DNA from: Verrucomicrobiaceae bacterium
Lineage (GTDB): Bacteria > Verrucomicrobiota > Verrucomicrobiia > Verrucomicrobiales > Akkermansiaceae
Length of the DNA: 64,000 bases
Direction: 5' to 3'
Assembly (NCBI GenBank): GCA_027487435.1
Contig: JAIYDP010000246.1
Location: 62,001 to 126,000 of the forward strand
The notes under the pieces were generated by a model that worked only from the letters and a program-made list of their open reading frames with translations, ran no database searches and had not been told where the DNA came from. Below, piece after piece: positions 2,138-11,977 of this stretch. The position numbers were made by a program, and so were the translations under genes. Numbering within the stretch: position 1 is the first letter of the stretch; every line of letters starts with the position of its first letter.

Positions 2138-2315
2138 GCGGAGTTGATAGCGATCAGGTCATCGAGAAGCAAGTGTCAAAATGTGACGAATGAGTGAGGA
2201 AGGCGAGGATTTGCGGAATTTGTGGCATTTTTTGAAAAGATACTGACAAAAGTGGGCTTCTCTGGTGTTTTCTCCACGAAGGCTTTCGCCGGAAACGCTA
2301 TCAATACAATCTACT
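2138..2315. other. Intergenic region between divergent dehydrogenase and T2SS operon
   Basis: This 178-base spacer separates the minus-strand dehydrogenase from the first T2SS gene and must hold promoters for both. I see no convincing -35/-10 pair or operator. Confidence 0.3.
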
Positions 2316-2759
2316 ATGAATACGACGCAGAATCGGACAAAAAAAATCAAGAAGGCAGCAGGTTTCACTTTGCTGGAAATGGTCATCGTGCTTGGCATCA
2401 TTGGCCTGATCATCGGTGGAGCCATCGGGGTGATGGGCAGAGTCGGCGCGGGTGCCGCGGTTCAGCGTGTGAAGGGCGATATGCAAGCAATGAGTAGCGC
2501 CTTAAAGATGTATAAGATCAACAATGGCTTTTATCCATCAGGTGCTCAAGGACTGAAAGCTTTAGTCGCTCGTCCGGGAGGTTCGCCTGCTCCGAAGTCA
2601 TGGACACAGCTCGCAGACCGCGTGCCGATGGATCCATGGGGACAAGAATACCTTTACAAATTTCCAGGCACAAAAACGCCATCAGAATTTGAGATCATCA
2701 GCAAAGGCGAAGACACGCAGCAAGGAACCGAGGATGACATCACCAGCCAAGGTGAGTGA
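2316..2759 (+). CDS. gspG: Type II secretion major pseudopilin GspG
   Basis: The 147-residue protein has a basic leader ending in Gly16, followed by the type IV pilin N-terminal helix FTLLEMVIVLGIIGLIIGGA with Glu at mature position 5. Its C-terminal half holds the GspG signature (NNGFYPSGAQGLKALV..., DPWGQEYLYKFPG, FEIISKGED), including the acidic end that binds calcium in known GspG proteins. It is the main subunit of the T2SS pseudopilus. A longer frame from 2265 exists, but the ATG at 2316 gives a normal leader length. It begins an operon with the minor pseudopilins; the stop lies three bases before the next start. Confidence 0.95.
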   Translation: MNTTQNRTKKIKKAAGFTLLEMVIVLGIIGLIIGGAIGVMGRVGAGAAVQRVKGDMQAMSSALKMYKINNGFYPSGAQGLKALVARPGGSPAPKSWTQLADRVPMDPWGQEYLYKFPGTKTPSEFEIISKGEDTQQGTEDDITSQGE

Positions 2760-2762
2760 TGA

Positions 2763-3377
2763 TTGAATCGATTGCTACTACCAACCATCATGCGCCGCTC
2801 CTGTTTAGCCAATCCTGTGAGACATCGTCAGCGGCGAGGTTTCACCTTGCTGGAGATGGTTTTCGTGCTGGCGCTGATCGGTATAGCGATGGGAGGGGCG
2901 ATTACATTTTTCGTGGTTTCATCATCGGAACGCCAACTCAAGGGAGCAGCAAAAGATATTGAGCTACTGTCGCAGAAAGCTCGTGCTATTTCGCTGATTC
3001 AACAAATTCCTTACGCCATTACCGTATCCGAAGGAAATCTGCGGATGGGGCCACTGGTAGAGGCGGGATTTTCCGAGCGCGACTTGCTCGAACGTGAAGC
3101 TTACGAAAATTCTATGATGCAGAATGGCGAGGCGAGGCCAAAGTTTTCTCCGGTGCGAACGGACTTGGATCTTTCGGCTTTTGCGGTCTCGATCCGCCGC
3201 TGGGGTGGCTCGCAGTATCAACCGATGCGTCGATCCGACCCCGAGGTCTGGAGGTTTGATCCAAACGGGCTATGTGAACCCATCGGACTTCGCTTAGAAT
3301 ACGAGGATGGTTGGATCGAGATGGAATTTCACCCCTTATCCGCAACGATCAGAGATCAATCCATGGAAGCCCGATGA
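2763..3377 (+). CDS. gspH: GspH-like minor pseudopilin
   Basis: About 204 residues with a basic leader ending at Gly26, then FTLLEMVFVLALIGIAMGGA, the pilin helix with Glu at +5, and a beta-rich C-terminal part without other clear motifs. Position after gspG and before gspI makes GspH the natural call. A TGA at 2760-2762 blocks upstream extension, so the start is either TTG 2763 (preceded by aaggtg at a fair Shine-Dalgarno distance) or ATG 2790, which would give a more usual 17-residue leader. The stop overlaps the gspI start (ATGA). Confidence 0.8.
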   Translation: MNRLLLPTIMRRSCLANPVRHRQRRGFTLLEMVFVLALIGIAMGGAITFFVVSSSERQLKGAAKDIELLSQKARAISLIQQIPYAITVSEGNLRMGPLVEAGFSERDLLEREAYENSMMQNGEARPKFSPVRTDLDLSAFAVSIRRWGGSQYQPMRRSDPEVWRFDPNGLCEPIGLRLEYEDGWIEMEFHPLSATIRDQSMEAR

Positions 3378-3786
3378 AACATTTCCGCAAAACTCGTCGT
3401 CGCAATGGCTACCTCTTGATGGAGGTCGTGATCGCGCTGGCCATTTTTTCCTTGGTGGCAGTAGGTTTCACAAAGGCACTGAACAAAGCGGCGGATGCAT
3501 CCGATTTGGCAGCGAAGAGCGTGCAAATCACCCGCATTTTGTCCAGCGCGATGGATGAGGCGATATCGACACCCATCCTTGAAGAACAACAGATCGTCGT
3601 GGACTTGGAAGAAAGAAACATGACAATCACCACGCTTTACGAGCCAATGATCGAGGAATTGCAAAATAGAGATGAACAGTTCTTGCAAGATATGTGGCGG
3701 ATTACCGTCATCGGCACCTACATAGAAGACGGAAATAAGATCGAGCGATCGATGGTAACTTGGCGCTACGGAAAACTCTATCAGCC

Positions 3787-3790
<4 letters not shown>
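3374..3790 (+). CDS. gspI: GspI-like minor pseudopilin
   Basis: The ATG at 3374 overlaps the stop of the previous gene (ATGA) and gives a 138-residue protein with the leader MKHFRKTRRRNG, cleaved before YLLMEVVIALAIFSLVAVG, Glu at +5. Small size and place in the gene order match GspI, which together with GspJ and GspK forms the pseudopilus tip. The soluble part is short and acidic. It overlaps the next gene by four bases. Confidence 0.8.
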
Positions 3791-4553
<763 letters not shown>

Positions 4554-4557
<4 letters not shown>

Positions 4558-5537
4558 AAAATCTTACCTCTGATCAACATTGCAATCCTCGCATCCGCAG
4601 GCAACGCGGCATGGCTTTGGTGGCTGTGCTTTGGCTCATCGTCATCCTCGGGTTCGCCGCCGTTACAGCCATTAGCTTGCTCAATTTCCAACTCGACGTC
4701 GCTGATTCCCAAATCAATGGCTTTCGCGCACGCATGGCCGCAGAAATGGGAATTGCCGTTGGCTGCAACCCCGCAGTTGAGCGCGGCGACCCCGTCCTCC
4801 AATTCGCCAACGAAGACGGCGAAAGTTATGAGGTCGATCTGAAAACGGAAGGCGGTCGATTCAATATCAATTACCTCCTCGCCGAAAAAGCAGGAGGCAA
4901 CGACAAGCGACTGATCAAGGAAATCATGATACGATGGGGCATCGAAAATGATATTGCGCAAGAGATTTCTGATGCCTTAATGGACTGGACTGATCCAAAT
5001 GATGAAGTACAAGCCAATGGCGCGGAACGAGAAGATTATGAGAAAATAGGCCGCCTCAATCAGCCCTTCAATCGCCCATTTTACTCGCTCGATGAAGTGC
5101 GTTTCGTGCGAGGTTGGGATCTTGTCGAGCGCGTGCGTCCGGATTGGCGTGATTGGTTTACCGTATGGAGCCAGGGTGGGCTTGATGTCAATGAAGCCGA
5201 TGCCGAAAAAATTTCGATTGCCGCTGAGTGCAACATCGAAGACGCAGACGCGTTGGTAGAGATCGTTCGTGGAGCCGATGGCCTGCGAGGAACCGAGGAT
5301 GATATGCCGTTTCAAAATCTCGTAGCAGGACAAAACGGCCCCGGTGTCATGGATATCTTGCGCGTACCTGACTTTTACTCTTCTATCATCTCCGCACGCT
5401 TGGCAGTGAATGATGCAACCGTACGCATCGAAAGCATTGGCACGGCTGGTGCAACGAAACGAAAAATCATTCTCGTCGTCCGCAACCGCGCAGGCAAGCC
5501 CGTCATTTTACAGAAAACCGAAGAAGTTATACCGTGA
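4554..5537 (+). CDS. gspK: GspK-like minor pseudopilin
   Basis: The 327-residue protein has a basic leader to Gly19 and then MALVAVLWLIVILGFAAVTA. It lacks Glu at +5, which is the hallmark of GspK among pseudopilins. The large periplasmic part has features of the family's SAM-like domain (RFNINYLLAEK..., ALMDWTDPNDE, FYSLDEVRFVRGW, LDVNEADAE). GspK caps the pseudopilus with GspI and GspJ. It starts inside the last codons of gspJ (ATGA) and its own stop overlaps the GTG of the next gene. Confidence 0.88.
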
Positions 5538-6775
5538 GCAAAAAAGCAGAAATCACCGCACTAGTACCGGGAGCCTCCGGTTGGGAAATTTGGCAAGGAC
5601 AGCCATCCGCAGGATTGACACGCCGCGAAAGTAGCGATGTCACACACGCTGGCGAAATCCTAAACCTCCCCAACCTTGACGTGGTGCTCTTTTTCCCTGT
5701 AAAAGATGCCACTGTTCTGCCGTTTCGCGCCGCTTCTGCGGACGAATCGCTCTTCGCCGACCTCGCACAAATGCATTGCGAGCGTATGGGCATTCGCACC
5801 GACCCCGATGCAGGAAAGCTCATCGACAGCTTCGTCCTCGAAACATCGACCGACAGTGCCGTGCTGGCCACCGTTGCATTACGCGCCCCACAGCCTGGGG
5901 ACATGCCCACTCGTAGCCCCAAGGAATTTGACTACTCCCCGCGCGCATTCGCCTTCCCCGCCAGTGGCATCGCTGTCTGGAAGGAATTCGGTCACTGGGT
6001 ATTTGCCTTTTACCAAAATGGGAAAATGCTCTACGCCCAATCCACATCCAACGATGCAGAAAACCCGAACGATGCCCTGCTGCGGGACATCAAGCTCGCT
6101 CTCGTTCAGCTATCGTTTCAAAACATCGCGATTTCCACTGACGAAGTTCGCATTTGGCACCCCGCCGGTGACTTGGGCGAAGCAGGCAGTCTCACAGAGG
6201 CACTGGGCGTTACCGCCATCGTCACACGCCGGCCCGATCCTGCAATATCGGCCATTCCCAGCAAGCTGTTGCCAGCCGACGTGCAAGCCTTACGCCGCAT
6301 TGCAGCTCAGCGCATGCAGATCAAAATCATCGCCTCCGTCGCCGCCATTGCTGTGCTATCGCTCATCGGCTGGGCAGGATGGGATCTTTCCAAACTCAAA
6401 AAGAAGACCGACGATGCTTCTGCCGCCGCCGCTGAAGTGCAACCACAAATCGAAGAATACACAAAGCACAAAGACAAATGGAACGAACTGGGTCCAGTCG
6501 TCGATTCCCAGCAATGGCCTGTGGAAATTCTCTTTAACATCGCCAAAAGTATCCCGCCCGTAGGTGGCATGCGCCTCAAAGAAGCCCGCATCAACAACAT
6601 GGAAGTCGATGTCAAAGGCAGTTCGCAAGATTCCATCCCGATTGGAACGTTCGCCGTCAACATCGAACGAAATGAAGCCCTACAACGATTCAAATTTGAC
6701 TCCCCACAACGTAACAACAGTTCCAAAGGCTGGGAATTCACATTAAAAGGTGAAGTGCCGCAAATCCCAAAATAA
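5534..6775 (+). CDS. gspL: GspL-like inner membrane platform protein
   Basis: This 413-residue protein has a long cytoplasmic N-terminal part (about 1-258, compatible with the actin-like GspL/PilM fold), one membrane helix at roughly 262-283, a coiled-coil stretch, and a C-terminal PilN-like periplasmic domain (about 325-405). GspL links the secretion ATPase GspE to the inner membrane platform. The GTG start at 5534 overlaps the gspK stop (GTGA). Identity rests on topology and position between gspK and gspM, because the family is poorly conserved. Confidence 0.7.
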   Translation: MSKKAEITALVPGASGWEIWQGQPSAGLTRRESSDVTHAGEILNLPNLDVVLFFPVKDATVLPFRAASADESLFADLAQMHCERMGIRTDPDAGKLIDSFVLETSTDSAVLATVALRAPQPGDMPTRSPKEFDYSPRAFAFPASGIAVWKEFGHWVFAFYQNGKMLYAQSTSNDAENPNDALLRDIKLALVQLSFQNIAISTDEVRIWHPAGDLGEAGSLTEALGVTAIVTRRPDPAISAIPSKLLPADVQALRRIAAQRMQIKIIASVAAIAVLSLIGWAGWDLSKLKKKTDDASAAAAEVQPQIEEYTKHKDKWNELGPVVDSQQWPVEILFNIAKSIPPVGGMRLKEARINNMEVDVKGSSQDSIPIGTFAVNIERNEALQRFKFDSPQRNNSSKGWEFTLKGEVPQIPK

Positions 6776-6868
6776 AATCGACTTTTTCCCACGATCACAG
6801 ACAGAAATCCTCTTCCTCGGCTTTCCCTCTGACAAGCACACATTCCTTTTCCTTCTCATCACCTACTC

Positions 6869-7444
6869 ATGTCCGAACGCGAAAAAAAACTTCTCTACCT
6901 CTTTGCCGTAGCCGGTGTCATTCTTATCGGTTTCTGGGGTTACAGCACTTTCTTGAATTACAAACAAGACCTGACGAGGAAGCTAGACAAAGCACAAGAG
7001 GATCTCGATACGGCAAAAATGGCGATCGCCTCCCGTGATGCCATTATCGAGGAAATCGAATGGCTGGCGACCCATGAACCACAACCACGAGCCAGCTTGC
7101 AAGCTCCTGATGAAATTGCGAAATTTGCCGACACTGAAGCGCTCAGTTCAGGCCTGAATGTGAAGAATAAAAAAATCCTTAGCACCCTCGAAGCTGGTAC
7201 CGAAGGCAACCTCGTCAACTACTCCATCGCCCAAGTTGAGTTCCAAGTCACCGGCACCGAAAAAAACCTCTACACTTGGTTCGATAAAATGCACGAACCG
7301 ACGAAATTCCGCGTGATCTCCAACATTTCACTGATGCCGAACAAAGAAAACGATACCCTCATCGACTGCAACGTCATTTTTGACCAATGGTTCATCGCTG
7401 CACCGCTCGATAGCCCAGAACCCGAGACAGCTTCTACGCCATGA
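6869..7444 (+). CDS. gspM: GspM-like inner membrane protein
   Basis: A 191-residue bitopic protein: short cytoplasmic N-terminus, one membrane helix at about 8-27, a helical stretch (LDKAQEDLDTAKMAIASRDAI), then a small alpha/beta periplasmic domain as in GspM/PilO. It would pair with the GspL-like protein to anchor the secretion ATPase. A 93-base spacer separates it from gspL, the only sizeable gap in the operon, and it ends in an ATGA overlap with the next gene. Low sequence conservation limits the call. Confidence 0.65.
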   Translation: MSEREKKLLYLFAVAGVILIGFWGYSTFLNYKQDLTRKLDKAQEDLDTAKMAIASRDAIIEEIEWLATHEPQPRASLQAPDEIAKFADTEALSSGLNVKNKKILSTLEAGTEGNLVNYSIAQVEFQVTGTEKNLYTWFDKMHEPTKFRVISNISLMPNKENDTLIDCNVIFDQWFIAAPLDSPEPETASTP

Positions 7445-7899
7445 TCATTTCTCGTTCCATCTCCCACCTAAGCTGCTTTTTGCTCGGATTGTTGGCTTTC
7501 ATTGCCTTTTCTTTGCCTGCACAGGCTCAAGCTCCACGCAAAACCTCGCGCGAAGTCTATCACTACCTATCCTGGAGGTCGCCCTTCACAGCCAATCGAC
7601 ATGCAGAGCCACCCATCACGCGCAATCATGCGGAAAACCTCACCATCACTGGCATGACCAAGTTTCCCGACGGATACTTCATCGTTCTCGAAGATCGCAC
7701 CGATCCAAAAAAAACTCTCTTCATCCAACCCGGCGTCCCCAGTCCGGTGGAAATCCTCGATATCTCTGACGAGAGCGAAAACATTCAGCTTCACATCAAG
7801 TATCTCGGCGAAACCGCTCGCATTGGCTTCGCCACGACCACGAAAAAAACCTCCGCCAAATCGACAAAAAGCGCATCCCCTACCCCATCATCACCATGA
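7441..7899 (+). CDS. Small secreted protein, first of a GspC-like paralog pair
   Basis: A 152-residue protein with a Sec signal peptide (to about residue 30, ending AQA) and a single small beta domain, followed by a Lys/Ser/Thr/Pro tail. It shares a pattern with the next gene: SPFT, then G[MV]T[KQ]FPDGYF[IV]VL, a Lys/Pro loop, QPGV and a short V.[IV]L strand. The layout resembles the periplasmic homology region of GspC (strand, turn, strand, ligand loop, strand), the piece that binds the secretin. Unlike GspC it has no lasting membrane anchor. Its place directly between gspM and gspD supports a T2SS role; the GspC link is my inference. Confidence 0.6.
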   Translation: MIISRSISHLSCFLLGLLAFIAFSLPAQAQAPRKTSREVYHYLSWRSPFTANRHAEPPITRNHAENLTITGMTKFPDGYFIVLEDRTDPKKTLFIQPGVPSPVEILDISDESENIQLHIKYLGETARIGFATTTKKTSAKSTKSASPTPSSP

Positions 7900-8546
7900 A
7901 ATCACTCGCCATTCTTTCTGCTTTGCTGGCATTTCCTGTGCTTGCCGCACCACCTGTCAAGCCCGAGAAGACCCGCTACGCTCCGCTTTGGGTCAATTCG
8001 CCCTTCACTGAAAAGCCCGTCGTAGCTGCCCCAAGCGGCCCGCCTCCAGTTAATCCCCTCGATGACTACGCCCTCGGCGGTGTCACGCAATTTCCCGACG
8101 GCTACTTCGTTGTGCTTATCAACAAAAAAAATCCAGCCAAAAAAATCACTGTGCAGCCGGGTGTTTATAGTGAGTTTAAAGTCCTCAGTGTCGATATGGG
8201 CAAAGAAAGCCTTTCCGAAGATGGAACGATGATCAACGAAGGAGCCAGCGTCAAACTCGCCAATGGTTCTATGCAAGGAGAAGTTAAATATGACACTAAG
8301 ATTATGGCCATGAGAGGTGCCAGCGCAAATCCAGCACAATCCATGAATCCTCAGGGCAACCGTACCATTTCCCCACAAGGAGGCTTCCCACCGGGATTTA
8401 TCGCTCCAAACGGCAACAATTCTACCCGGCCAACCCGCATGCGCACCATTCCGCCTCCTACAGCAGTTGACCAGTCGCAAATTCCTCAACCCCAAGTGCC
8501 GCAACCGCAAGTACCGCAAGGCTCACCCGCCCTACCTGTCCAATAA
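7896..8546 (+). CDS. Small secreted protein, second of a GspC-like paralog pair, with Pro/Gln-rich tail
   Basis: A 216-residue protein with a signal peptide ending near residue 18 (VLAAPP). Its domain at about 55-130 matches the preceding gene product (NSPFT..., GGVTQFPDGYFVVL, VQPGV), so the two arose by tandem duplication. The C-terminal third is disordered: Gly/Asn/Pro-rich, then repeated PQVPQPQVPQ. A possible function is the GspC-like bridge between inner membrane platform and secretin, or a chaperone of the secretin encoded just downstream. ATGA overlap with the previous gene, 24 bases to gspD. Confidence 0.6.
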   Translation: MKSLAILSALLAFPVLAAPPVKPEKTRYAPLWVNSPFTEKPVVAAPSGPPPVNPLDDYALGGVTQFPDGYFVVLINKKNPAKKITVQPGVYSEFKVLSVDMGKESLSEDGTMINEGASVKLANGSMQGEVKYDTKIMAMRGASANPAQSMNPQGNRTISPQGGFPPGFIAPNGNNSTRPTRMRTIPPPTAVDQSQIPQPQVPQPQVPQGSPALPVQ

Positions 8547-8570
8547 TTCCGATATACCCTTTTCTACATT

Positions 8571-11129
8571 ATGAGCAAACGTATCCTCTATTTCTCCAGC
8601 CTCGCTTCCCTATTCGCCGTATGGGTCGTCGGACAAGTTCCGCAACCTACCGTTCCAGGGCAATTGCGACCACCTGTTCCAGGTGTACCAAACACGAAAG
8701 TTCCCGCCGCAGAGAACAAGGAGGCTGGACCCAAAGCCTTTGGCGTTACACCTGACGGCAAGTTGCCCAACTTGCCAGCAGGCCAAGACAACCGCGCCAT
8801 CAATGCACCTAACCCGAACGATGTTTGTACTATTGGTTTGAATTTTGAAAAATGCAATGCCCAAGTTCTCAGCTACCTCTACCGCCAACTCACCGGACGC
8901 CGTGTCGTCATGTCGGCCGAAGTAAAAGACTTAGAACTCTACTTTGTTCAGCCCCCTCCGATCACCTACGGCGAGGCTCTAGAGTTGCTAAAGGCTGCTT
9001 GCCTGATACACGGCTTCGTCTTTTCTCCAGGCGGTGACGGCTGGGATCAACTCAGCGCCGCAGCAAGCTCCGTTAAGCCACCTCTCTCGGGAAACATTCC
9101 CTTCATCACCAATGAAGTTTCTCTTCCCGACTCCAACGTCGTGGTTCGATACGTCATGGCTCTCAAGCACATCAAGCCGGACGAAGCGACACGCGTTTTC
9201 CAAACCGTGCTCGGCGGTGCTTTCAATACCTACGGAACCATCGTCGCTGTGCCAAATGCCGCGTCTCTGGTCATTACCGATAACGTTGCGTTGATCCGCT
9301 TCCTCATCGAACTCCAGAAAAAAATCGATGTCCCTTCCTCCGATATCGAGACCAAATTTCTCAAAGTCCAGTATGGCGATGTCGAAGAACTTTCCGCCAC
9401 ACTCAGCGAACTCTTCACCGCCCAGACCGGAGCGCAAAGCACTGCTGGCACCCAGCGCGTGCAGCAAAACAATATCCCTGTGACACCACAAGGTGGCGGT
9501 ATCATCAATATGCCAAATATGCCCTCTGGTGCTGGCAGTAGCAATGCAGTAGAGGCCCCGCCCGTGCAGATCATTCCGGATCTCCGCACCAACCGCATTT
9601 TCGTCATGGCTCGCCCCATCGATGTGGTGTTTGTCGAAAATCTCGTCAAGCAATTCGATGTTGAATCGGACTCACGCAATTTCATGCGCCGCAAGCTGCG
9701 TTTCCTCCCTGTCGGTGACTTTCTCGACGTAGCTGGCGATGCCCTCACCCGTGCCTTCGGCGGTGCGGCGGAAGGCGGCAGCGCTGGCGGCGGCGGTCGT
9801 GCAGCTACGGCGACTTCTACGGGTCGAGGCGCAAGCTCAAGTCTCGGCGCGGGCACTGGGCGTAGCTCACGCGGCGGCGCAGGCACCAGCCAATTCGGCG
9901 GCGCTGGCGGTGCTAGCGGCGGCGGCTTCGGCGGCAATACTGGCTTCGGCGGCGGCAGCAGCTTCAGCGGTGGTGGTGGCATCGGCACTGGCGGCAGCGG
10001 AGGCCTTAGCGGCGCCGATGGCGACATTCGCCCCGTATCTCTCATCGTCGGGCGCACCCTTCTTGTTGCCGACAAAATCTCCAACTCGATTGTCGTCCAA
10101 GGCCCCCCTAGCGGCGTGGAAATCATCAACAACTTGCTTGATGAAATCGATGTCAAAGCCGACCAGGTGATGATTAGCACCGTATTCGGCCAACTCACTT
10201 TAGGCGACAGAAAAACACTCGGCGCGGATTGGGTAAGATCGCTCAAAGATACAGGAGATGGATCTCTTGGCTTTAACTCAGGCAATGTGCTTCCCACCGG
10301 AAACGGCGTGTTCAATGGCGGCTTAGGCCTTTACGGCACGTTAGGCAATTCGCTTGATTTCTACGTAAGAGCCATCCAAGACAACAGTGATTTCAATGTT
10401 ATCTCGACACCAAGCATCGTTGCAAACAACAATCAAACAGGCCTCATCTCCAGCGGTCAGCAGATTGCTGTGCCTGCCAACAGTTTCAATGGCGGACTCA
10501 ATGGTGGTCAAACCACCAACATCGAATATCGTGATGTTGTGCTCTCTTTGCAGGTGACTCCACTTGTGAACGACGAAAACACGGTCACACTGAACATCGA
10601 ACTTATCAGCCAAGGTGTCGGCAATAACCGATCCATCGGCTCCGGTGATAACGCCTTTGTTGTCCCAGATATTATCCAACGAACGCTTCTGACAACCGTG
10701 ACCGTGCCAAACAACCAAACCGTCGTGCTTGGGGGATTGATCACCAAAGAGTCGAGTGAAAGTGTGAAAGGCATACCTTATCTCAGCCAAATCCCTGGTC
10801 TTGGGCGACTTTTCTCCACGAAAACCACCGATATCAACCGCAACGAATTGCTGATTTTCATACAACCGCAAATCATTCGAGACAAGAATTCCGAAGATCG
10901 TGTCAACACTTGGATGGACAACCGCTACGATATGTCTGATGAGATGCGTCGCTCCATGGACGACACCAGCCTTCTACCACCCCTCGTCGCTCCACCGGTG
11001 GGAAAAAATAGCAACGCATCACCGACTGCTAAACCCGCATCCGTTCCCAGCACGCCAGCGAAAGCCGTCGATACCTCCACCGCACCCAAGGCGCGGCCAA
11101 CGAATGTGACGAGTAATCGATTTCGTTGA
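8571..11129 (+). CDS. gspD: Type II secretion secretin GspD
   Basis: An 852-residue secretin. A signal peptide (1-21) and a Pro-rich linker are followed by N-domains: about 85-160, 188-255 (VVRYVMALKHIKPDEA... repeat) and 258-365 with a Gln/Gly insert. Residues 397-483 are a large Gly/Ser/Ala-rich low-complexity insert inside the next N-domain. The C-terminal secretin beta-barrel spans about 530-772, with the family signature VPNNQTVVLGGLI (712-724) and GIPYLSQIPGLGRLF. It forms the outer membrane channel. A Ser/Pro/Thr tail follows. Length is greater than usual (about 650-750) because of the insert. Its stop overlaps the TTG of the following gene. Confidence 0.95.
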   Translation: MSKRILYFSSLASLFAVWVVGQVPQPTVPGQLRPPVPGVPNTKVPAAENKEAGPKAFGVTPDGKLPNLPAGQDNRAINAPNPNDVCTIGLNFEKCNAQVLSYLYRQLTGRRVVMSAEVKDLELYFVQPPPITYGEALELLKAACLIHGFVFSPGGDGWDQLSAAASSVKPPLSGNIPFITNEVSLPDSNVVVRYVMALKHIKPDEATRVFQTVLGGAFNTYGTIVAVPNAASLVITDNVALIRFLIELQKKIDVPSSDIETKFLKVQYGDVEELSATLSELFTAQTGAQSTAGTQRVQQNNIPVTPQGGGIINMPNMPSGAGSSNAVEAPPVQIIPDLRTNRIFVMARPIDVVFVENLVKQFDVESDSRNFMRRKLRFLPVGDFLDVAGDALTRAFGGAAEGGSAGGGGRAATATSTGRGASSSLGAGTGRSSRGGAGTSQFGGAGGASGGGFGGNTGFGGGSSFSGGGGIGTGGSGGLSGADGDIRPVSLIVGRTLLVADKISNSIVVQGPPSGVEIINNLLDEIDVKADQVMISTVFGQLTLGDRKTLGADWVRSLKDTGDGSLGFNSGNVLPTGNGVFNGGLGLYGTLGNSLDFYVRAIQDNSDFNVISTPSIVANNNQTGLISSGQQIAVPANSFNGGLNGGQTTNIEYRDVVLSLQVTPLVNDENTVTLNIELISQGVGNNRSIGSGDNAFVVPDIIQRTLLTTVTVPNNQTVVLGGLITKESSESVKGIPYLSQIPGLGRLFSTKTTDINRNELLIFIQPQIIRDKNSEDRVNTWMDNRYDMSDEMRRSMDDTSLLPPLVAPPVGKNSNASPTAKPASVPSTPAKAVDTSTAPKARPTNVTSNRFR

Positions 11130-11977
11130 GACAAAATCATCATCGTAAGCCCCCAAAAAGCGTGTTTATACAAATCCTCTTCCCTGTGAAATTCGTTCCA
11201 CACGCTTGGTGTCGTTTGATCGCGATGTTTCTGCTTTTCGCTACGATTGCCGAAGCGCAAACCATCGCTGCTACGAATGGAGCTTTGCAATCGTCGCGTG
11301 CCGTATTCTTTCCCTCATCAGGAGCATTTTTCCCTTTCGCCAGCACGACTGCCGTGGAGTCAAATCGATTCCCTTTATCGCTGACGACCGATTTTGCAAA
11401 ACCCGCCACATCCACAGCTTATAGTGTTTCGGAGATGTATCGCTATCAGTTGCGCTTGCTCGATTCCGACAACAAAGTTGTCATCCTGAGCTCTGGCAAC
11501 AGCTTAATCACCACTGAAGATTTCACCATCAGTTTGACAGATTTAGGTAAAAATGAGAGTCGAACGCAGAGCTTCATGGTTCAGCCGAATGTCGCACTAC
11601 CGATATCGAGTAAGAACCATTCGGTAAGCGTGGTATTGCAGCGTAGAACCTTGGATACCAGCGGCTTCCCTAAGCATGTGTGGGTCGATCAAGGCGCAGC
11701 CGTAATACTCGCTTTGACACAAGAAATTGGCACCCCACAACTGCGGATCAGCTCGGCCAGTGCGACAGAAATGCGACTCTCCTACACCTACGCCACGCCC
11801 TACGGCGCGGAAGTTTATGCGCGTTGGAAATTGCTGGCATCCCCGTCGTTAGAGGCAAACTCGTTTTCAGCCGTCACGGGACTCACTGTCACGGCTGGCC
11901 CAAACAACGAATATAGCTACACCGTCCCGATTTCCCCCACCACGACGCCCAAGCAATTCTTTCGTCTCGGCAACTAA
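11126..11977 (+). CDS. Secreted protein of unknown function at the end of the T2SS operon
   Basis: The frame begins with TTG at 11126, overlapping the gspD stop in the NTGA style of this operon; a GTG at 11186 would give a cleaner signal peptide (MKFVPHAWCRLIAMFLLFATIAEA). The mature protein of about 235 residues looks beta-rich, without cysteines in motifs or catalytic residues I recognise. The last 80 residues (RLSYTYATPYGAEVYARWKL...) resemble a small beta-sandwich. Translational coupling to gspD suggests an accessory part or a substrate of the secretion system. Start choice is uncertain. Confidence 0.55.
   Translation: MRQNHHRKPPKSVFIQILFPVKFVPHAWCRLIAMFLLFATIAEAQTIAATNGALQSSRAVFFPSSGAFFPFASTTAVESNRFPLSLTTDFAKPATSTAYSVSEMYRYQLRLLDSDNKVVILSSGNSLITTEDFTISLTDLGKNESRTQSFMVQPNVALPISSKNHSVSVVLQRRTLDTSGFPKHVWVDQGAAVILALTQEIGTPQLRISSASATEMRLSYTYATPYGAEVYARWKLLASPSLEANSFSAVTGLTVTAGPNNEYSYTVPISPTTTPKQFFRLGN

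Follow-up and report, generated by a model that had tools for sequence, protein, structure and literature searches.

Between gspM and gspD, the type II secretion system (T2SS) operon of this Verrucomicrobiaceae bacterium encodes two small paralogous proteins, named here P1 and P2. P2 is probably the verrucomicrobial equivalent of GspC and PilP: an exported, apparently unanchored periplasmic bridge whose HR-like domain would sit on the N0 domain of the secretin GspD, with P1 as its lineage-specific, tail-less duplicate. In the T2SS as described so far, the HR domain of GspC binds secretin N0 (PMC3169554), and GspC itself reaches across the periplasm from the GspL/GspM platform (PMC6882859; PMC11981180).

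Two paralogous genes between gspM and gspD

The operon lies on the + strand at positions 2265–11129 of the window (the whole stretch of 64,000 nucleotides analysed), in the order G-H-I-J-K-L-M-P1-P2-D, as established from open reading frame (ORF) calls and Pfam and NCBIfam matches. Its features are the following:

2265–2759, +, gspG, major pseudopilin (TIGR01710, E 1.1e-33, above cut-off)
2763–3377, +, gspH-like minor pseudopilin (prepilin-type N terminus; counterpart in 15 of 15 family loci)
3311–3790, +, gspI-like minor pseudopilin (ORF; comparison of family loci)
3760–4557, +, gspJ-like minor pseudopilin with a Gly-rich tail (T2SSJ, E 2.2e-4, below cut-off)
4554–5537, +, gspK (T2SSK_1st, E 2.1e-13, above cut-off)
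5534–6775, +, gspL-like platform protein (best Pfam match PilN, E 0.0048, below cut-off; GspL_C, E 0.12)
6869–7444, +, gspM-like platform protein (T2SSM, E 0.0084, below cut-off; conserved position)
7441–7899, +, P1, extra, fast-evolving copy of the HR-like domain, 152 aa, without Pro-rich tail or basic motif
7441–7527, +, P1 signal-peptide-like segment, ending in AQA (heuristic pattern)
7639–7830, +, P1 predicted HR-like six-stranded domain (AlphaFold2 model, strands at core residues 38–101)
7896–8546, +, P2, 216 aa, copy that resembles the lone P gene of relatives
7896–7946, +, P2 signal-peptide-like segment (heuristic pattern)
7998–8009, +, SPFT motif of P2, following the YAPLW helix (consensus in the family RYxxLWxxSPF)
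8067–8291, +, P2 predicted HR-like six-stranded domain (AlphaFold2 model, core residues 39–113; fold matches)
8331–8543, +, P2 Pro/Gln-rich C-terminal tail
8427–8459, +, basic motif RPTRMRTIPPP within the P2 tail (relatives carry similar motifs)
8571–11129, +, gspD, secretin (Secretin, E 2.7e-42; TIGR02517, E 1.3e-79, under its equivalog cut-off)
8841–9029, +, N0-like domain of gspD, presumed partner of the HR-like domain (PF21305, E 0.029, below cut-off)

The initial annotation had described tandem secreted paralogs at this place, and their coordinates, kinship and shared motifs are borne out. P1 and P2 align by BLASTP with E 1e-17 and 31% identity across 134 columns and have SPFT, FPDGYF-VL and QPGV in common; this match, together with conservation, rules out a chance similarity. 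Within the aligned stretch examined, 40 residues are identical, and 23 of these are encoded by different synonymous codons, which speaks for an old duplication under selection and not for a recent copy. Start and stop codons overlap as ATGA at 7441 (gspM/P1) and 7896 (P1/P2), so that M, P1 and P2 look translationally coupled. Neither protein matches a Pfam or NCBIfam family above cut-off, or a GspC-type family at E ≤ 1.

The N0-like model PF21305 is matched at E ≤ 0.1 by 25 of 43 secretins, with the window's GspD at 0.029. Scans for promoters and terminators over 6700–8700 gave no excess over shuffles, and no gspA was seen among the ORFs of the operon. An ORF of 283 aa with a hydrophobic N terminus (11126–11977) begins where gspD ends; it has no Pfam or NCBIfam match at E ≤ 1 and no counterpart in the 15 family loci. 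The tail of GspJ is encoded by a Gly-rich, hexamer-type repeat (4445–4522). Upstream of the operon, at 496–753, about five units of 42 bp form an array with a near-palindrome in each (ATTTCCGAAATCGGAAAT); its core pattern, with up to two mismatches, occurs at a single place in the 82%-complete genome.

Predicted fold of P1 and P2

We modelled the cores of P2 and P1, and the cores alone, with AlphaFold2 from an alignment of 58 core sequences. The P2 model has six strands, with a mean pLDDT of 81.9 and a pTM of 0.59; that of P1 repeats their order (pLDDT 80.1, pTM 0.55). The HR domain of GspC is likewise described as six-stranded (PMC3169554).

In VIA-align, the best seven rows for P2 are all of HR type, with Z from 5.7 to 4.6, and the next row, an unrelated one, is at 3.0. 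They comprise PilP of M. xanthus (Z 5.7, 5.1 Å over 68), the GspC HR domain of E. coli (3oss_C; Z 5.6, 2.9 Å, 62/65), PilP of P. aeruginosa (Z 5.4, 4.9 and 4.6), the Dot/Icm chain 7muc_Af (Z 4.9) and PilP of N. meningitidis (Z 4.6). The PilP entries are 3jc8, 2lc4, 2y4y, 2ivw and 2y4x, chain 3jc8_Pa being assigned to PilP from the title of its entry. Chain 7muc_Af is presumably DotF (PDB 7MUC), a protein that has been likened to GspC and PilP (PMC8486379); unlike P, it belongs to a different machine, a type IV secretion system. For P1, the GspC HR domain takes Foldseek rank 1 (probability 0.98, E 0.14) and a VIA Z of 4.6. PilP, GspC HR and PulC HR lead its VIA list at 5.0 to 4.5, followed by lactoglobulins at Z 4.0.

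These scores are modest: no Foldseek match of P1 or P2 reaches E 0.001, and every VIA Z is below 8, a range in which the tool warns of common arrangements. P2's are nevertheless clear of unrelated folds, and both cores are predicted to be HR-like. The call is founded on the whole top of the match list being one functional fold, together with the gene position, and on no single score. The likeness to the GspC homology region that the initial annotation had read from the domain pattern thus reappears in the predicted models, both six-stranded and both closest in the PDB to HR-fold proteins.

At the sequence level the relation fades. A profile search of PDB sequences returned chance-level matches only, and hhalign of the P profile with one E. 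coli GspC gave a probability of 1.3% and P 0.04, the aligned stretch being the HR region. Among 58 family members, Pfam T2SSC is matched by a single one (E 0.024), amid unrelated families. NCBIfam at E ≤ 0.5 yields 18 families, three of them GspC-type: XpsN (0.0054), GspC_delta (0.052) and gspC (0.059), each in one member and possibly in one and the same. No PilP family is matched by the 58 members at E ≤ 1 (Pfam) or E ≤ 0.5 (NCBIfam), and family searches found no PDZ match in P1, P2 or the 58, models being of the core only. By current definitions, the P family falls outside both the GspC and the PilP families. As a lead only, residues 62–70 of E. coli K-12 GspC, which precede its HR domain (LAALWRNEN), bear a slight likeness to the LWxxSPF of the P family.

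Distribution of P and the search for gspC

With P2 alone as query, a 387-genome sample of the phylum yielded relatives in 15 other genomes, all of the same family. The order G-H-I-J-K-L-M-P-D is kept in all 15 of these loci, with one P in 14 and two in genome G251. A profile built from these relatives (A1) detects P in 110 of 384 genomes of the class at E ≤ 0.05, and in 107 at E ≤ 0.001. The initial annotation had proposed looking for conservation next to gspD in other Verrucomicrobiota, and it is found: among 54 loci chosen from the profile matches, gspM adjoins P in 48, gspD in 40 (within 500 nt), and both, as M-P-D, in 38. The M-P count uses stop-to-stop ORFs and scores two loci (L082, L104) as misses though gspM lies just upstream. 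Elsewhere among the loci, P stands apart from the operon in L068 and 3' of gspD in L105, and L103, a weak match counted among the 54, has no P according to the scoring model. A stretch of only 100 bases, L096, is excluded from the counts.

GspK (PF21687) is present in 294 of the 384 class genomes. The first profile detects P in 102 of them, and in a further 8 genomes that have no GspK match. Within the window's family, the same 34 sampled genomes carry GspK and P, as compared by eye. The 20 listed genomes of genus g2, in the same family, match neither GspK nor P; the whole T2SS may be missing from them. Beyond the family the correspondence is partial, and many GspK-positive genomes are without a detected P. 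We sampled 80 of the other 192 GspK-positive genomes, picked across the list and more thinly toward its end, and 53 of the 80 match a wider profile at E ≤ 0.01. For the 20 of these 53 with both places listed, inspection by eye puts P on the strand of gspK, 2–9 kb downstream of it, in 13 and elsewhere in 7. An 8.6-Mb genome of the same order (G217) matches the P family at six places spread over five contigs, a hint that it carries several T2SS loci, each equipped with a P of its own. P is a widespread family of the class, for which we found no Pfam or NCBIfam model.

No anchored gspC was thought to be encoded here, and none was recognised. The GspC model T2SSC (PF11356) has no match at E ≤ 0.001 in the window's genome; the assembly being 82.38% complete, absence of gspC is not proven. 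Above cut-off, T2SSC matches 0 of the 384 class genomes, while E. coli and Caulobacter do match. Its sub-threshold matches, in 24 class genomes, fall at least three times on P-type genes: in G427, where the order is L-M-P-D; in G515, by coordinates; and in G525, where no gspM or gspD was found beside the gene. In the window's genome, the wider P profile at E ≤ 5 returns P1 and P2 only, and a scan of the contigs with P2 alone as query found nothing. A canonical gspC beside gspE and gspF was also sought there and rejected: reading the ORFs of at least 140 aa, together with the P model, revealed no HR-type gene in the regions C315 (two gspE-type genes and one gspF-type gene) and C356 (gspE and gspF). 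A third region, C442, has two shorter T2SSE matches.

The sub-threshold T2SSC matches also led to five further proteins that look HR-like by eye (L106, L110, L114, L119 and L120). In four of them the N terminus resembles MSLVHEALRKA, and the loci, each about 3 kb long, showed no gspM or gspD.

A PilP-like bridge among T2SS pseudopilins

We propose that a signal peptide exports P2 to the periplasm, free of a membrane anchor, where its HR-like domain would dock on the N0 domain of GspD. The RYxxLWxxSPF segment, a predicted helix followed by SPF that is conserved N-terminal to the HR-like domain, would tie P to the platform; the Pro-rich tail with its basic motif could be a further tether. P1, with the same HR-like domain and no tail, would be a second HR protein with an auxiliary role or one that is diverging.

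Several known proteins share part of this design. As in GspC (E. coli 3OSS, PulC, XpsC), the predicted fold of P is six-stranded and HR-like, and its gene adjoins gspD; in contrast to GspC, P has no evident anchor, PDZ match or family-level sequence match, although some GspC proteins are also described as devoid of PDZ (PMC11981180). The gene follows gspM, whereas gspC of E. coli K-12 directly precedes gspD and gspE. With PilP, P shares the predicted HR-like fold, a segment before the domain (that of PilP binds PilN/PilO; PMC5805733), and a place between a GspM/PilO-type gene and that of the secretin, comparable to pilMNOPQ (PMC3724824). It differs from PilP in that P1 and P2 have no lipobox, no PilP family is matched and the operon carries T2SS pseudopilins. 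In type IV pili, the unstructured N terminus of PilP is reported to bind PilN/PilO and its folded domain the secretin (PMC5805733). P has the parts for a similar scheme, given RYxxLWxxSPF before the HR-like domain, the pilP-like position and PilN as the best sub-threshold match of GspL. The M-P-D position, equivalent to pilO-pilP-pilQ, and the absence of an evident anchor make P more PilP-like than GspC-like, though set among T2SS pseudopilins.

The initial annotation had suggested a soluble bridge, and of this idea the HR-like fold, the conserved position and the lack of a recognised gspC stand, while export and freedom from the membrane are read from sequence features. A small-x-Ala pattern follows the hydrophobic stretch, at residues 13–31, in 18 of 18 family proteins, often with prolines next; the pattern is a loose heuristic, applied without a control and in place of a dedicated predictor. 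No lipobox occurs in P1 or P2, and a simple pattern finds one in 1 of the 18 (L029). P is thus apparently exported without an evident membrane anchor, and would be soluble. P might instead be an ordinary membrane-anchored GspC, divergent in sequence only, whose hydrophobic N terminus stays uncut. We regard this as rather unlikely in view of the small-x-Ala pattern, loose as it is; yet P N termini and GspM anchors overlap in their best 19-residue hydrophobicity (medians 1.67 and 2.07, respectively). Moreover, a genome from another family of the class (G552) encodes, by ORF reading, a protein judged by eye to be of HR type, whose N terminus is hydrophobic (L136, 8936–9433), 3' of a gspM-type gene and 5' of gspE; some lineages of the class may therefore retain an anchored form of GspC. 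The tail raises another alternative, a scaffold like GspB/OutB whose HR domain helps to place the secretin while the tail holds peptidoglycan, another protein playing the part of GspC. OutB indeed combines an HR domain that binds N0 with a C-terminal extension attached to peptidoglycan (PMC9239104), and P2 has a C-terminal extension too, whose basic motif is found again in 42 of 56 relatives; 500 shuffles gave 10.6 on average and 19 at most. This pattern was written after the tails had been inspected; a first, narrower one matched 23 of 56 and a later strict form 34 of 56. OutB-type proteins, however, have a transmembrane segment and gspB mostly accompanies gspA (PMC9239104), whereas P lies between gspM and gspD, and the 82%-complete genome yielded no T2SSC match or further P-type gene to serve as GspC; such a scaffold seems improbable.

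The two copies also invite the reading of a heteromeric split bridge, as the initial annotation had it, with P1 contacting the platform and P2 the secretin. Both are intact, apparently translationally coupled and equipped with the same motifs, and G251, G551 and G566 likewise have tandem copies. Yet a single copy is the rule: P is present once in 30 and twice in 4 of the 34 family genomes that have it, two additional, very short G307 matches being set aside. Each copy, besides, is predicted to hold a whole six-stranded HR-like domain, and the pairs look like separate local duplications, so a division of labour of this kind appears highly improbable. In the tree, the G251 copies are sisters (98/89), both G551 copies group with the single copy of G307 (98/97), and P1 falls with the window's genus, on a branch of 4.0 (the clade that includes P2 has 82/96). 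Such long branches make the placement of P1 unsure, and an older duplication followed by losses is possible; the ten best BLAST matches of P1 are P genes of close relatives, at 33–38% identity. The basic tail motif is missing from the second G551 copy and both G566 copies and kept in both of G251. As far as the tree can tell, these are apparently separate local duplications; from the groupings and the motif losses, duplication seems recurrent, the copy often losing its tail motif. P1 is probably a second HR protein, auxiliary or diverging, and our best guess places it on the same N0 ring, since OutB beside OutC is a precedent (PMC9239104).

Returning to P2 as an unanchored bridge, RYxxLWxxSPF and the basic C-terminal motif suggest that the protein is tethered at each end. 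A further step, which we put forward tentatively and with some doubt, is that the bridge is a freely diffusing, replaceable HR protein held by motifs instead of an anchor: RYxxLWxxSPF to the platform and the basic motif to peptidoglycan, the membrane or the secretin.

Among the titles listed by a literature search, with most subscription journals outside its scope, none concerned a missing, soluble or PilP-like GspC in the T2SS of Verrucomicrobia or the PVC group. In a survey of type IV filaments, the main text does not contain "Verrucomicrob-", and the final T4aP model no longer forbids gspC (PMC6668835). In current views GspC links the motor in the inner membrane with the gate in the outer one, and its anchored, flexible linkers are what models of the symmetry mismatch depend on (PMC6882859; PMC11981180). 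If our proposal is true, the T2SS of this class would be a mosaic of T2SS pseudopilins and a T4P-style L-M-P-secretin arrangement, in which the anchor of GspC is dispensable. An unanchored bridge in a large class would then show the minimum requirements for such a bridge and represent an intermediate form linking the T2SS and type IV pili.
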